A stretch of DNA of 6,106 nucleotides from Candidatus Hydrogenedentes bacterium CG07_land_8_20_14_0_80_42_17 (lineage in GTDB: Bacteria > UBA8481), in the NCBI GenBank assembly GCA_002780065.1, contig PEWQ01000181.1, forward strand, positions 1 to 6,106, read 5' to 3'. The first letter of the stretch is position 1; each line of letters starts with the position of its first letter. This document shows positions 1,263 to 6,106 of this stretch, piece after piece. A program made the translations under genes and the position numbers. The notes under the pieces are model-generated. The model had not been told where the DNA came from. It saw only the letters and a program-made list of their open reading frames with translations, and made no database searches.

Positions 1263-2351
1263 ATGATCTCTATTCTTGCTTTAGGAAGTGACCTTAAACC
1301 GTCTTTTACTTTTCTACGAGGCCGAGAAATTTTTTCAGAATCCATTATTAATTTTGTAGAACTTTCCAATCTTGATGATTTTAATAATTGGTCTAAAAGA
1401 ATTATCGAGCTCTGTGACCGATTTAAACCGAATGTTATTGTTGTCGACAAACATCCTCTTTTCATTTCGAGAAGATTCGGAATTGATTTATCTCGAAAAC
1501 TGAATGCCGAATTAATCGAAGCTCAGCATCATCATGCGCACGCTTTCAGCTCAATTAAATATTTCGATATTAATGATCGCGTATTAGCGGTAATTATGGA
1601 TGGAACCGGCTTTGGAGAAGACGGAACGATTTGGGGCTGTGAGATTTTTTTGTGCGAAACTGATGGGAAATGCGAACGGTTGGGACATCTCAAACCTGTG
1701 CCTTGCCCGGGCGGTGATGCGGCGATTCTATCACCATGGCGAATGGCAGTAGGATGGCTTGAAGAATCTGCGGATTACGATTTGTTCAAAGACACAGTGC
1801 GCAAAGAAGAGTTTGAGATTGCAAAGCGCGTCTGCGCCTCCAAATTTGCGGTTCTTACATCGTCGGCGGGAAGGCTTTTTGATGCGGCAGCGTCTCTACT
1901 TGGAATTGCAGTGACCGTGAAAGAATCAGCGCGGGCCGCGGTAATGCTGGAGAACTATGCAATTTCTGCATTGGAAATTTTCGGATGCGCCGAAGAAGAA
2001 AAGCATTATGAAATTATTGGCAATGTTCTTGATATGAAGCCGGCTCTCTTTAAAATAATTCAGGATCAGAAAAGCGGAGTTTCAATAAAGAATTCCGCAT
2101 TGCAATTTCATGTTCAACTAGTTAGAGGAATTTGCGATCTATTGGAAGATGTGAACAATTTAGGAATTAAAAAAGTAGTATTTGGCGGAGGCTGTTTTTT
2201 GAATTCGATTTTGCGGCAAGAATTTCCAAAAAGACTTTCAAAATTGGGTTACGAAACTTATCTTCCTGAGCCTTTTATCTGCACGGATTTAGCTCTTTCT
2301 ATAGGGCAAGCTGAGATTGCATCGAAGAACCTTGAGCTGAAAGAGATTTGA
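1263..2351 (+). CDS. hypF: Stand-alone HypF C-terminal (Kae1-like) carbamoyltransferase domain
   Basis: The 362-residue product matches only the C-terminal Kae1/TsaD-like half of HypF, the part that moves carbamoyl from carbamoyl-adenylate to the HypE cysteine. Full HypF is roughly 750 residues. Visible landmarks: the domain-opening ILALGSDLK (4-12), metal-site HHHAH (89-93), DGTGFGEDGTIWG (113-125), the HypF-specific PVPCPGGDAA (145-154) and SPWRMA (157-162), GRLFDAAASLLG (203-214), the GGGCFLN loop (308-314), and TDLALSIGQ (341-349), whose D342 matches the last metal ligand of the family. No acylphosphatase, zinc-finger or YrdC-like region exists: an in-frame TAG lies at 1251-1253 and only a 149-bp spacer separates it from hypE. 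The ATG at 1263 is the only nearby start and falls at the domain boundary, so this looks like a deliberate single-domain gene rather than a fragment. No Shine-Dalgarno is visible. A shortened HypF (HypF1) is known in Ralstonia eutropha. The full reaction needs a carbamoyl-adenylate source from elsewhere. Confidence 0.9.
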   Translation: MISILALGSDLKPSFTFLRGREIFSESIINFVELSNLDDFNNWSKRIIELCDRFKPNVIVVDKHPLFISRRFGIDLSRKLNAELIEAQHHHAHAFSSIKYFDINDRVLAVIMDGTGFGEDGTIWGCEIFLCETDGKCERLGHLKPVPCPGGDAAILSPWRMAVGWLEESADYDLFKDTVRKEEFEIAKRVCASKFAVLTSSAGRLFDAAASLLGIAVTVKESARAAVMLENYAISALEIFGCAEEEKHYEIIGNVLDMKPALFKIIQDQKSGVSIKNSALQFHVQLVRGICDLLEDVNNLGIKKVVFGGGCFLNSILRQEFPKRLSKLGYETYLPEPFICTDLALSIGQAEIASKNLELKEI

Positions 2352-2375: not shown

Positions 2376-3206
2376 ATGGCAAAGAGACAAATTTTTTTTA
2401 CTTTACTCACTTCGATTCAGCGCGCGTGGCGGATTAATCTTTTTGCGCTTTCGGCGCAATTAGCTTATTACGAATTTATTTCCATCTTCCCTCTGATAAT
2501 CGTCTGCCTATCTCTTTTAGGATTTTTGCCGATCGATAATATTTTTCTGAAAGGCGCCGACTTTCTTTCAACATTTATGCCTCCGAGCGTTATAGATTTT
2601 ATTTTGAATTGGACTGACGGAGTCAGAAAAACCGGAGGCGTCACAACTCTATTGCTTGGCGCAGGAGCTCTAATCTTTTCCGGTTGGGCTACTGCCGGAG
2701 CATTTATGCATGCGTTTAGAATTGTTGAACGTGAGCCGATACGAAAAAAGTTTATGACAGTTATTCTCGTTAAAACTTTTTTCAGTTTAGTAGTTGCTTC
2801 ATTGATTTCTCTTGTTTTTGTAATTTGGGTTGCAGGTCCTGCTCTATTGAGTTTAGTATCTCTGTTCTTTAGGATGGAAGAGATTTGGAATTGGGTGTGG
2901 CTGATAATCAGACTGCCTATCGGGATTCTCATTATGACTTTATGCGTGGCGCTTCTTTATAAAGTTTTGGGTTATAGAAATATTATTTTTAAAGAAAAAC
3001 TTTACGGAGCGTTTCTTGCGGCAATTTTTTGTTATCTGATCTCATGGTCATTTTCTTTATATCTTAGAGCTATTCCTGATTTAAATCTCACTTACGGAGG
3101 AATTGCCGGTATCGTCATCTTTTTAATTTGGCTTCAGATGATGAATTTATCTCTGCTTCTCGGAGAGGTCTGGAACGTCGAACTATCGAACAACAAAAAT
3201 TACTAG
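2376..3206 (+). CDS. YihY/BrkB-family integral inner-membrane protein
   Basis: This 276-residue membrane protein fits the YihY/BrkB (UPF0761) family in length and pattern. The family signature near the N-terminus, QLAYYEFISIFPLIIVCLSLLGFLP (28-52; Ala-Tyr-Tyr followed by a Phe-Pro-Leu core), is present. Hydrophobic segments lie at about 33-52, 88-112, 128-163, 171-197, 207-231 and 240-266, giving roughly six membrane passes. The C-terminal YGGIAGIVIFLIWLQ (240-254), ending in LLGEVWNVEL (261-270), is the other conserved block. The ATG at 2376 is preceded by GGAAG at 2366-2370 with good spacing. The gene begins 24 bp after the HypF-domain stop, so co-transcription is likely, though no role in hydrogenase maturation is known for the family. 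Its molecular function is unsettled; members have been called virulence factor BrkB or, wrongly, ribonuclease BN. Its stop is only 10 bp from the stop of the converging gene. Confidence 0.93.
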   Translation: MAKRQIFFTLLTSIQRAWRINLFALSAQLAYYEFISIFPLIIVCLSLLGFLPIDNIFLKGADFLSTFMPPSVIDFILNWTDGVRKTGGVTTLLLGAGALIFSGWATAGAFMHAFRIVEREPIRKKFMTVILVKTFFSLVVASLISLVFVIWVAGPALLSLVSLFFRMEEIWNWVWLIIRLPIGILIMTLCVALLYKVLGYRNIIFKEKLYGAFLAAIFCYLISWSFSLYLRAIPDLNLTYGGIAGIVIFLIWLQMMNLSLLLGEVWNVELSNNKNY

Positions 3207-3216
3207 GCGAATGCAA

Positions 3217-4359
3217 CTACCGTGCAACCGCGAAGACTCTGTTGTTCCTGAGATAATACCCTGTCATTCCCTGACGAGAATTTAGAGTCAAAGAAACTGA
3301 GCCGAACAAGAGCTCTATTGATGGTTTAATGTTATGAATTAGAATCGGGCATTTTTCTATGCTTGGTTTCTCATCAGAAATCTCTTCTTCGATTCTTTGA
3401 AGTTTATTATTATATTCGCTTATTTCATTTTTTAATTCCATATATCTTTTTGACTGAAGAGCTAGTTCCTGCTTTTTTTCTTGGGGAAGTGTTGTGACCT
3501 TGTCTCCTAACAATCGAATAACTTCTATAACTTTTTCCAGCTTCGACATCTCAGCCATCTTTTCTTCGATTGCTTTCTTCAAATTCATCGAGACTGAGAA
3601 GAGCTGTTTCTGGCGCTGAAGCACGATCGAAAGAATCACAGGCAAGTTATTTACACCTTCGGCAGAACTAATCCTAATAAATATTCCTGCTTCTATTTTG
3701 CCACCTATGACACCATCTCCTTTATCAACCTCGACAATCTCGTTGGACTTAACCTCGCATAATTTTAGAGTTTTTGCCTTTACAAATTTTATCGCTTCAA
3801 TTTTAGAATGCTCGGCAAAATTTACTGTTGCAGATTCTGATTTAATAAATACCGGTTTTTCGACAGAACCTTTAATGCCGCCTTGAATGACAATATCTCT
3901 TTCAGACTCGATACTAGCGCCCTCCGCAACGTTTCCTGCGACTTTTATGAATCCAGATGACTTTATTCTTACTCCAGCTCCAATGTCTTTCGTTAAAATA
4001 ATGTTTTTTTCGAGAAATATTTCTTCCTCCGAATATTCAATATTTGATTCCACCATCAAGGTACTGCCGTTGTCTATTTCGTAACCGGGAGGCGAGTAGA
4101 GATTTTTTTTCGGAGCCAGCCCCATTGCATCGATATCGTAAACTTCTATTTGAGAATCTTTTGGCAGTTCAACAATTTGTGAAAACGATTCAACGTTCAG
4201 CGCAACATCGAATGATTCGACGTTCCACGCTCGGAGTTGCCGCAGATGCCGCTCGGAAATTGTAGCGCCGGCTGCAAGCAGTTGACCGCCCTGATGAAAT
4301 ATTGGGACGCGAAGAGTCATCCCCGGTTGTAGTAAGTCTAGTCGGAACGAAGTCGCCAA
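3217..4359 (-). CDS. FapA/DUF342-family beta-helix protein with coiled coil
   Basis: Starting at the TTG at 4359, the product has 380 residues. Residues 4-53 (FRLDLLQPGMTLRVPIF, then GGQLLAAGATISERHLRQL) resemble the short N-terminal segment found in many HD-GYP and related signalling proteins. Residues 95-235 form a series of short beta repeats with regularly spaced Gly, Ile and Val (for example GFIKVAGNV, DIVIQGGIKG, GDGVIGGKIEAG). This is the FapA/DUF342 right-handed beta-helix pattern, related to bactofilin-like polymer domains. Residues 245-330 are a charged, heptad-rich helix (coiled coil), followed by a beta-rich tail (335-378), again as in FapA. No signal peptide or membrane segment is seen, so it is probably cytoplasmic. 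TTG is chosen because it lies one base after the TAA of the upstream sensor gene and precedes the conserved N-terminal block; ATG at 4320 would cut into that block, and TTG at 4434 would add 25 residues encoded within the upstream gene. Translational coupling is likely. The role is unknown; a scaffold or polymer working with the sensor is an inference. Confidence 0.75.
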   Translation of the reverse strand: MATSFRLDLLQPGMTLRVPIFHQGGQLLAAGATISERHLRQLRAWNVESFDVALNVESFSQIVELPKDSQIEVYDIDAMGLAPKKNLYSPPGYEIDNGSTLMVESNIEYSEEEIFLEKNIILTKDIGAGVRIKSSGFIKVAGNVAEGASIESERDIVIQGGIKGSVEKPVFIKSESATVNFAEHSKIEAIKFVKAKTLKLCEVKSNEIVEVDKGDGVIGGKIEAGIFIRISSAEGVNNLPVILSIVLQRQKQLFSVSMNLKKAIEEKMAEMSKLEKVIEVIRLLGDKVTTLPQEKKQELALQSKRYMELKNEISEYNNKLQRIEEEISDEKPSIEKCPILIHNIKPSIELLFGSVSLTLNSRQGMTGYYLRNNRVFAVAR

Positions 4360-4360
4360 T

Positions 4361-5905
4361 TTAGGCTCTCTGCAGTCCTTCGATTGCGGCAAGGAGCTCG
4401 CTTGCTGTTTCTCCGTCTTCAGGTGAAGCAACAATCGAAGTGTCCAGATCGTCAGCGTTAGTGAGTTCTATCATCATCATGTTTTTTCTCGCATCGAGCT
4501 TAGACCAGCCTGGCACGACAACAATCAAACAATTTACTCCGTATCTGACTATAAGTTCAGCCTCATTAACTTTACTTTTAAGTTCGTTTTCAAGTTCCTG
4601 AAATTTCTTTTCTACAGAGGTTGCACCTTCTTTCCATGACTTTTCTGCAAAATGAAAAGTGATTATGCTTAACTCGACTCCGAATTTTTTCGCATTTTTT
4701 AAATATTCGTCTATTCGGTTCGAAATGAATACGAAAGGATTTGTCAGCTTGAACATTTCCCGCTCCGTCATAATGCTTACAAGTATCGGAGGAGATATTT
4801 GCGATGCGACTACTGAAAGAATTTGCGCGGCGTCTTTTTCTTCCGAGGAAGAAACTCCGGCAATAAGGAGCCCAATATGACTGGAACCTGATTTTAAAGG
4901 CACTGCTAAAACTCTATTTTGAAATCCTTCTCCAAGGCCCCATTCCTTTGAGAGAAGGTTAGGATCTATATCTATTGGTGAATCGCTGTCGATAGCTTTA
5001 ACCAGACCGAGCTCTGATATATTCACTTCCTCCATAGGAAATGTGGGATGAGTCTCGGCACCACCGCTTTTCACCGCCGCTACCAGCCATTTGTGCTGAA
5101 GCTGAAGAAGTATCACTATCGGAGAAAAGTTGAAACCTGTAGCGAGCGTCTCAATATTCAGCCGTAAAATTTCCGAGCGATCTGAAGTTGTATTTATGAT
5201 TCGCGCTACGCTGTAGAGCGCTGAGAGTTCATTCAATGTGCGTTCCAGTTCTTCCCGCGAGCGGGCCAGATTATCGACCATTTCGTTGAATCTTGCAGAG
5301 AGTCTCGCAATTTCGTCTTTGCCTTTTACTTTTACCTTAGTTTTGAGATCACCTTTTGAGACTTGTTCCGCCGCAGAATCAAGAGCGACAATAGGCTTTG
5401 CGAAGAAATGAGCCCATATCAAACTTCCTAAGAGGGCGATAAAGAGAAGTATTGCCGCAACTGCAAGAGTAGTGCTTATGATATCGCGCCGCATTATTTC
5501 GCGAGGCGACGTGTTGAAGAGCATCTTTATTTCTCCGAATTTCTGCATGTGAGCCTGAATTGGACGTGTCATGAGCCGGGTATTCAAAGATATTTGTTGC
5601 GAATTAGATTCGGGATATTGCACGAGTTTATTGTTTTCGACATCGTAGATTGCAATCCAGACTACCGTTGAATTTTGTTCTTTAATTCTTTTTACAGTTT
5701 GAATGAGATTAGCAATGTCTTGTTTTACGATGTCGGATGCGGAAGATATCGCAATTGCAGAAGAGAGCAGATCCGCCGCTCTGTCTTCGTCAGCCTCCAT
5801 TATGTCGGTCTGCCTGACGATTGCCATATAACTGGTTACAGCAACAGCTAACACGACAAGTATCATTGCTCCAAGTGCGATTCTCCCTGCAACTGAATTA
5901 CCCAT
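4361..5905 (-). CDS. Membrane sensor: HAMP, GAF and degenerate GGDEF-like domain
   Basis: The 514-residue product has a first membrane helix (8-30), an extracytoplasmic sensor region (31-142) containing VVWIAIYDVENNKLVQYPES (81-100) as in Cache/PAS-like folds, a second membrane helix (143-168), a HAMP linker (about 166-217, with AEQVSKGDLKTKV and DEIARLSARFNEMVDNL), a signalling helix (217-240) and a GAF domain (about 240-378). The remaining part (385-510) follows the GGDEF scaffold: FFISNRIDE-like start (392-400), an ELSIITFHF strand (411-419), LIVRYGVNCLIVVVP (451-465) and SIVASPEDGETASELLAA (490-507). The catalytic GGDEF signature is replaced by GVNCL (456-460), so diguanylate cyclase activity is not expected. 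No histidine kinase, methyl-accepting or HD-GYP output is present. The ATG at 5905 is chosen over ATG at 5935 because GGGAGA sits just upstream at proper spacing and the hydrophobic helix follows directly. It is the first gene of a coupled pair with the FapA-like gene. Confidence 0.8.
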   Translation of the reverse strand: MGNSVAGRIALGAMILVVLAVAVTSYMAIVRQTDIMEADEDRAADLLSSAIAISSASDIVKQDIANLIQTVKRIKEQNSTVVWIAIYDVENNKLVQYPESNSQQISLNTRLMTRPIQAHMQKFGEIKMLFNTSPREIMRRDIISTTLAVAAILLFIALLGSLIWAHFFAKPIVALDSAAEQVSKGDLKTKVKVKGKDEIARLSARFNEMVDNLARSREELERTLNELSALYSVARIINTTSDRSEILRLNIETLATGFNFSPIVILLQLQHKWLVAAVKSGGAETHPTFPMEEVNISELGLVKAIDSDSPIDIDPNLLSKEWGLGEGFQNRVLAVPLKSGSSHIGLLIAGVSSSEEKDAAQILSVVASQISPPILVSIMTEREMFKLTNPFVFISNRIDEYLKNAKKFGVELSIITFHFAEKSWKEGATSVEKKFQELENELKSKVNEAELIVRYGVNCLIVVVPGWSKLDARKNMMMIELTNADDLDTSIVASPEDGETASELLAAIEGLQRA

Positions 5906-6064: not shown

Positions 6065-6106
6065 GTCATTGCGAGCACCGAAAGGGGAATACGCGAATAC
6101 GGGTAC
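6065..6106. repeat. Second copy of the GTCATTGCGAG repeat, cut by the window edge
   Basis: GTCATTGCGAG at 6065-6075 matches the first 11 bases of the element at 1138 in the same orientation. It then continues CACCGAAAGG, a common variant interior of this repeat type. The right arm, if present, lies beyond the window, so length and completeness cannot be judged. Confidence 0.6.

Follow-up and report, generated by a model that had tools for sequence, protein, structure and literature searches.

A degenerate GAF-GGDEF sensor core encoded beside a FapA-family beta-solenoid protein in several bacterial phyla

Introduction

FapA is widespread beside flagellar and chemotaxis genes, and most of what is understood about how it acts comes from Vibrio. 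The locus described here raises the question of how a FapA-family protein might be controlled when its gene adjoins that of a sensor with no enzymatic output of its own. The window, a whole contig of 6106 bases (C13 of G000, a draft genome of 2.39 Mb that is 87% complete), carries such a pair, which a preliminary description had read as a possible signalling-to-scaffold module: the pseudo-GGDEF domain of the sensor would dock the FapA-like protein by an N-terminal segment of the latter, and thereby hold it at the membrane. As detailed below, the idea of such a module, with the pseudo-GGDEF domain as a non-enzymatic output, is supported by conservation over at least five phylum-level groups, but the details of the N-terminal segment and of membrane docking are not.

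Gene organization of the window

The forward strand carries hypE (positions 94-1113) and a BrkB/YihY-type gene (2376-3206), both recognized by Pfam and NCBIfam matches. Adjoining hypE is a HypF-like gene (1263-2351, forward strand), whose match to TIGR00143 is confined to positions 392-739, the Kae1-like carbamoyltransferase part at the C-terminus, and which represents a split or reduced HypF. Two intergenic stretches (1139-1175 and 6065-6100), beginning TCATTGCGAG, resemble copies of a dispersed repeat when compared by eye only.

The pair lies on the reverse strand, as do all of its features given below by window coordinates. The sensor gene (4361..5905, with its ATG at 5905) encodes 514 amino acids and is supported by its open reading frame and translation, by Pfam and by an AlphaFold2 model; the FapA-like beta-solenoid gene (3217..4359, with a TTG at 4359) encodes 380 amino acids and is supported by its open reading frame, a PF03961 match and a model. 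At the junction (4357..4363), the stop codon of the sensor (TAA, 4363-4361) is separated by one base from the start of the FapA-like gene (TTG, 4359-4357), and the reading frames, translations and sequence agree with the positions and the one-base gap originally given for the two genes. As judged from sequence, the TTG start is plausible because the sole same-order homologue examined begins with ATG at the equivalent position (MATSF / MPHRF).

A sensor that ends in a degenerate GGDEF domain

From its N-terminus, the sensor comprises a transmembrane helix, an extracytoplasmic Cache-like region, a second transmembrane helix, HAMP, a helical linker, GAF and a degenerate GGDEF domain, and its AlphaFold2 model has a mean pLDDT of 78.4, with GAF and pseudo-GGDEF mostly at 75-95. 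The Cache-like region between the two helices (residues ~31-145, 5471..5815, boundaries set by eye) is an addition to the earlier description of the sensor: it is modelled as helix-then-sheet and matches sCache_4 at 17.7 bits, below the Pfam cut-off of 22.1, and its Cache identity is not established. When applied to the sensor alone, Pfam clearly detects HAMP (PF00672, residues 166-214, 5264..5410, 45.3 bits against a cut-off of 25), and GAF and GGDEF weakly. A profile of 27 homologous sensors, compared with solved structures, makes the GAF domain certain (residues 241-371, 4793..5185; 7e-13, e.g., 3e0y), and the domain ends near the family motif SQISPP, of the QxxP type. The same profile makes the GGDEF fold of residues 390-514 (4364..4738) equally certain, with 6d9m (7e-12) as the best match and 4urg at 2e-9. 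In agreement with the earlier description, Pfam detects no kinase, phosphodiesterase or chemoreceptor output domain in the sensor, and NCBIfam matches to kinases and chemoreceptors fall mainly on its N-terminal and HAMP part.

Alignment with intact GGDEF proteins confirms that the terminal domain is a pseudo-GGDEF, as previously proposed: it reads RYG-VNCL in the motif region, with GVNCL (codons 456-460, 4526..4540) replacing GG[D/E]EF. None of the 27 aligned sensor cores has a GG[D/E]EF motif, and none has the RxxD of the I-site, which both intact controls possess; all 27 have another residue, most often Lys or Arg, in place of the first-strand Asp that binds metal. Because motif, metal Asp and RxxD are all missing, neither c-di-GMP synthesis nor classical I-site binding is expected of this core, and both were rejected on these residues. 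Most of the degenerate-core family is also marked by Gln-x-x-Pro at the GAF exit, present in 35 of 47 rows without the GGDEF motif (three of these rows being unrelated sequences) versus none of 22 intact controls.

The nearest known architecture is that of PelD, a c-di-GMP receptor with transmembrane, GAF and degenerate GGDEF parts and likewise a non-enzymatic output. A sensor of this type would bind GTP, a cyclic nucleotide or c-di-GMP through its GAF or pseudo-GGDEF domain, and the loaded protein would act on FapA, such that the input would be a cytoplasmic small molecule rather than the N-terminal domain only. Foldseek matches do include PelD 158-CT (GAF plus degenerate GGDEF, with c-di-GMP bound) and cyclic-nucleotide GAF domains, but the residues missing from every aligned core include the I-site that PelD uses, and the sensor further differs from PelD in having HAMP and an extracytoplasmic input, and in being partnered with FapA instead of exopolysaccharide machinery. 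We regard a ligand receptor of the PelD type as unlikely.

The FapA-like partner

The partner matches PF03961 at 77.4 bits against a cut-off of 31 and thus shares its beta-solenoid and coiled-coil domain with FapA of V. vulnificus (flagellar assembly protein A, DUF342). It differs from canonical FapA in its pairing with a GAF-pseudoGGDEF sensor and in its N-terminus, where Pfam finds no FapA_N (PF20250), a domain present in another copy of the same genome (L025), and where another segment (residues 1-55, 4195..4359) is located. As the preliminary description had noted, this segment resembles one that precedes HD-GYP-type HD domains, and profile searches indeed place HD_5 behind such a segment in other proteins. 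In the AlphaFold2 model (mean pLDDT 86.6), this short N-terminal domain is followed by the beta-solenoid (residues 93-245, 3625..4083), a coiled-coil hairpin (residues 248-329, 3373..3618), and a C-terminal beta region that completes the FapA domain (residues 334-380, 3220..3360). Alignments also delimit the hairpin and its motif LGxKVxxLPxEKKQEL (residues 284-299, 3463-3510). Foldseek searches with this model returned no informative match (best E 0.09).

The solenoid contains a MinC_C-like stretch (4v02, 1.2e-5), which raises the possibility that it acts as MinC does, binding a MinD/FlhG-type ATPase in a contact that the sensor would tune, with effects on flagellar position or number. Eleven of 21 FapA members match the MinC_C profile, the solved structures that score best by sequence are MinC chains, and canonical FapA is close to flhG in the loci examined and in the spirochaete flagellar superoperon, which is given as flhF-flhG-flgV-sigma28-fapA in the passages available from PMC11607428. 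However, the MinC_C scores are far below cut-off, the window protein has no MinC N-domain and is not in a min operon, and no MinD/FlhG gene lies beside the pair in the loci examined. This MinC-like role seems rather doubtful as an explanation, although it is compatible with control of FapA by the sensor and would name the next partner. The spirochaete superoperon itself resembles our loci in placing FapA in a flagellar cluster, but contains the canonical form, and the passages available mention no pseudo-GGDEF partner (PMC11607428).

Conservation of the pair

Scanning genome contigs with the single sensor sequence yielded no relatives, whereas a FapA-side profile did find relatives. When 247 Spirochaetota genomes were surveyed from the FapA side, the short FapA genes with the highest scores proved to follow immediately on a GAF-GAF-pseudoGGDEF gene, in Brevinematales (records JABLXN01 and JAOADA01) as well as in further families. 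Both genomes examined from the phylum of the window also carry the pair, the second (G001) being record RFFU01, 'Candidatus Hydrogenedentota bacterium isolate J006'.

From the sensor side, searches relied on a profile of the GAF-pseudoGGDEF core that used no FapA information, run on 386 genomes from across the domain and on the phyla of G056, G055 and G589. Degenerate cores were detected in 36 genomes; the profile behind the 386-genome, G056-phylum and G055-phylum searches had been built from FapA-linked sensors, so that its most similar matches are expected to resemble these. In 33 of these, the immediate neighbour is a FapA gene on the same strand, and in the other three (G056, G630 and G688) the core is at a contig end, whereas FapA adjoins none of the 22 homologues that retain an intact GGDEF motif. 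Fisher's test of this difference gives p 4e-13 without phylogenetic correction, a value that overstates the evidence because the genomes are related. Receiver-type cores, which did not enter the FapA-linked-sensor profile, and bare cores, which entered neither of the profiles used, are still FapA-linked, in the other gene order. Spacing between the two genes is mostly -20 to +86 bases, and gene order differs: the sensor gene leads in Spirochaetota and the window group, and FapA leads elsewhere.

Sensor-side and FapA-side searches together place the pair in at least five phylum-level groups (those of G018, G055, G056, G589 and the window), a recurrence well beyond chance. The Spirochaetota census and the sensor-only searches thus reject the view that the two genes merely happen to adjoin in a couple of related genomes, and conservation outside close strains, on which the preliminary description had made its proposal depend, held. 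The same description knew of no reported system with this pair; likewise, we found none in the titles and passages of open-licence papers when searching for FapA, DUF342 or 'flagellar assembly protein A' together with GGDEF. The component domains are already known, and their dedicated cross-phylum pairing appears to be new as far as this open-licence literature goes.

What precedes the core varies among groups. Transmembrane helices and HAMP occur only in the window and in G001, and other sensors are cytosolic: those of Spirochaetota have a second GAF domain as input and no transmembrane helix, those of the G055 and G056 groups and part of the G589 group have a receiver domain, and in the rest of the G589 group the protein begins with the core itself. 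The input is interchangeable, and the core is constant. Membrane docking is therefore not a general rule of the module. The N-terminal segment of the partner (residues 4-53), previously suggested as the docking site, also fails as a shared contact, since it is missing from most short Spirochaetota partners (289-295 amino acids) and FapA_N takes its place in the partners of three further groups. Any contact common to the module must thus use the solenoid, the hairpin or the C-terminal region, and solenoid and coiled-coil hairpin are common to all FapA partners compared. A tree built from 94 FapA domains separates members with a partner from those without in five changes, as opposed to at least 22 in 500 shuffles; two of the exceptions (L005 and L006) sit at contig ends and may have a partner.

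Flagellar and genomic context

FlhA was detected in 42 of 46 module carriers, G000 and G001 among them, versus 12 of 34 non-carriers that belong to three of the carriers' phylum groups (p 1.3e-7). When only genomes with a completeness of 90% or more are counted, the numbers are 28 of 29 carriers versus 9 of 29 non-carriers; one of the four carriers without detected FlhA (G644) is 96% complete. The module is 24-27 kb from flhA on the same contig in six genomes, CheZ-type genes stand ahead of FapA in G055 and G589, and the Spirochaetota cluster includes fliS, for the FliS chaperone, with a long acidic protein encoded between fliS and the sensor.

The window itself presents a different picture, in that its 6106 bases include no flagellar or chemotaxis gene, but canonical FapA copies do sit in such clusters. 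Its genome has at least five FapA-family loci, and the canonical FapA (with FapA_N) is part of a cluster of flhA, flhF, a ParA/MinD-type gene and fliA. Given this further copy, the window protein is a paralogue, and the process it serves is less certain than for the family as a whole; it may serve something other than flagella. The pair in the window could then, in the manner of bactofilins, organize a different structure of the envelope or of cell polarity, the flagellar association elsewhere being historical. The multiple FapA-family loci and the context of the window would fit this reading, as would a PhoH-like gene adjoining the same-order homologue and SpoIIE/STAS-type neighbours in one family; against it stand the FlhA association, which includes G000 and G001, and the FliS or CheZ genes in several clusters. 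We judge a non-flagellar scaffold possible but improbable.

Proposed mechanism and precedents

Since the pair adjoins in at least five phyla, and almost always in flagellated bacteria, the sensor probably controls the scaffold. Our preferred reading, to which we attach fairly good confidence, is an ancient two-part module in which a dead GAF-pseudoGGDEF core controls the adjacent FapA scaffold, with the front domain setting the input, in the service of flagellar or chemotaxis organization. In the window sensor, an extracytoplasmic signal would pass through HAMP and the helical linker to GAF, and a change in GAF would alter the arrangement or an exposed surface of the pseudo-GGDEF dimer. This dimer would in turn bind or release the FapA-like protein by way of its solenoid and coiled-coil hairpin, shifting its location or assembly and so affecting, most likely, flagellar or chemotaxis organization. 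Direct contact, the direction of control and the flagellar role of this particular paralogue are elements that we infer. Weighing against this reading are the variable order of the two genes, the four carriers in which FlhA was not detected and, for the copy in the window, a contig free of flagellar genes in a genome with several other FapA-family loci. Conserved operons do not always imply contact, and the two genes might instead be needed simultaneously but act separately; such independence is quite improbable, however, given that the core is paired only where the enzyme motif is lost, that both gene orders occur, and that the core-FapA pairing stays as the inputs change.

The module with direct control of FapA has partial precedents. 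FapA of V. vulnificus is a binding partner of EIIA-Glc in its unphosphorylated state and is recruited by HubP (Park 2016, 2019, cited in PMC6877527 and PMC9061725), so that in these secondary accounts signal-controlled binding of a partner is already known for FapA, as the proposed switch would require. In Shewanella putrefaciens, PdeB docks onto HubP through its inactive GGDEF domain (PMC9061725), a similar use of an inactive GGDEF for protein contact at a flagellated pole; however, the GGDEF domain of PdeB is a GTP-binding switch for the phosphodiesterase domain attached to it (PMC9061725), and the window sensor has no enzyme. The core is probably a dead-GGDEF interaction switch of this kind, here coupled to FapA. 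We lean slightly towards the broader view that it represents a phylum-spanning signalling output that has evolved into a regulator dedicated to FapA, sits on swappable inputs (transmembrane-HAMP, GAF or receiver) and acts in flagellar or polar assembly without a second messenger. A conserved regulator family, if true, would supply a general signal input for FapA and account for a large group of degenerate GGDEF proteins. It would further offer a genome-wide annotation rule (a GAF-GGDEF protein with a dead motif beside FapA) and a path, open to experiment, along which signals from the environment might be relayed to flagellar organization without c-di-GMP.

Genes flanking the pair and related loci

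The long acidic protein encoded between fliS and the sensor in Spirochaetota is probably disordered and has 701-961 amino acids (L019, 10480-12585; L064, 10463-13348; L071, 10211-12331). It has no Pfam match in L019 and L064, and its start (..DDFELDMDIETITLDDIDL..) is conserved in Brevinematales. In two Spirochaetota families (L069, 5313-13480; L067, 3238-5661), the pair is flanked by partner-switching genes, including one for a SpoIIE phosphatase, and the flanks in L069 also contain an anti-sigma-type ATPase, a STAS-like gene, a receiver protein and an HD-GYP-type protein.

FapA-family genes without a pseudo-GGDEF partner, called from sequence and not by Pfam, occur inside chemotaxis or fliA clusters in L022 (6892-8301), L024 (9676-11130) and L026 (7829-9232). 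In L073 (genome G107; 8460-9332 and 9341-10423, reverse strand), a short FapA-like gene lies beside that of an unrelated 360-amino-acid protein that has a hydrophobic helix at its C-terminus, and this locus was left out of the count of pairs. These two genes are near a flagellin-like gene, and the 360-amino-acid protein is possibly another kind of partner.
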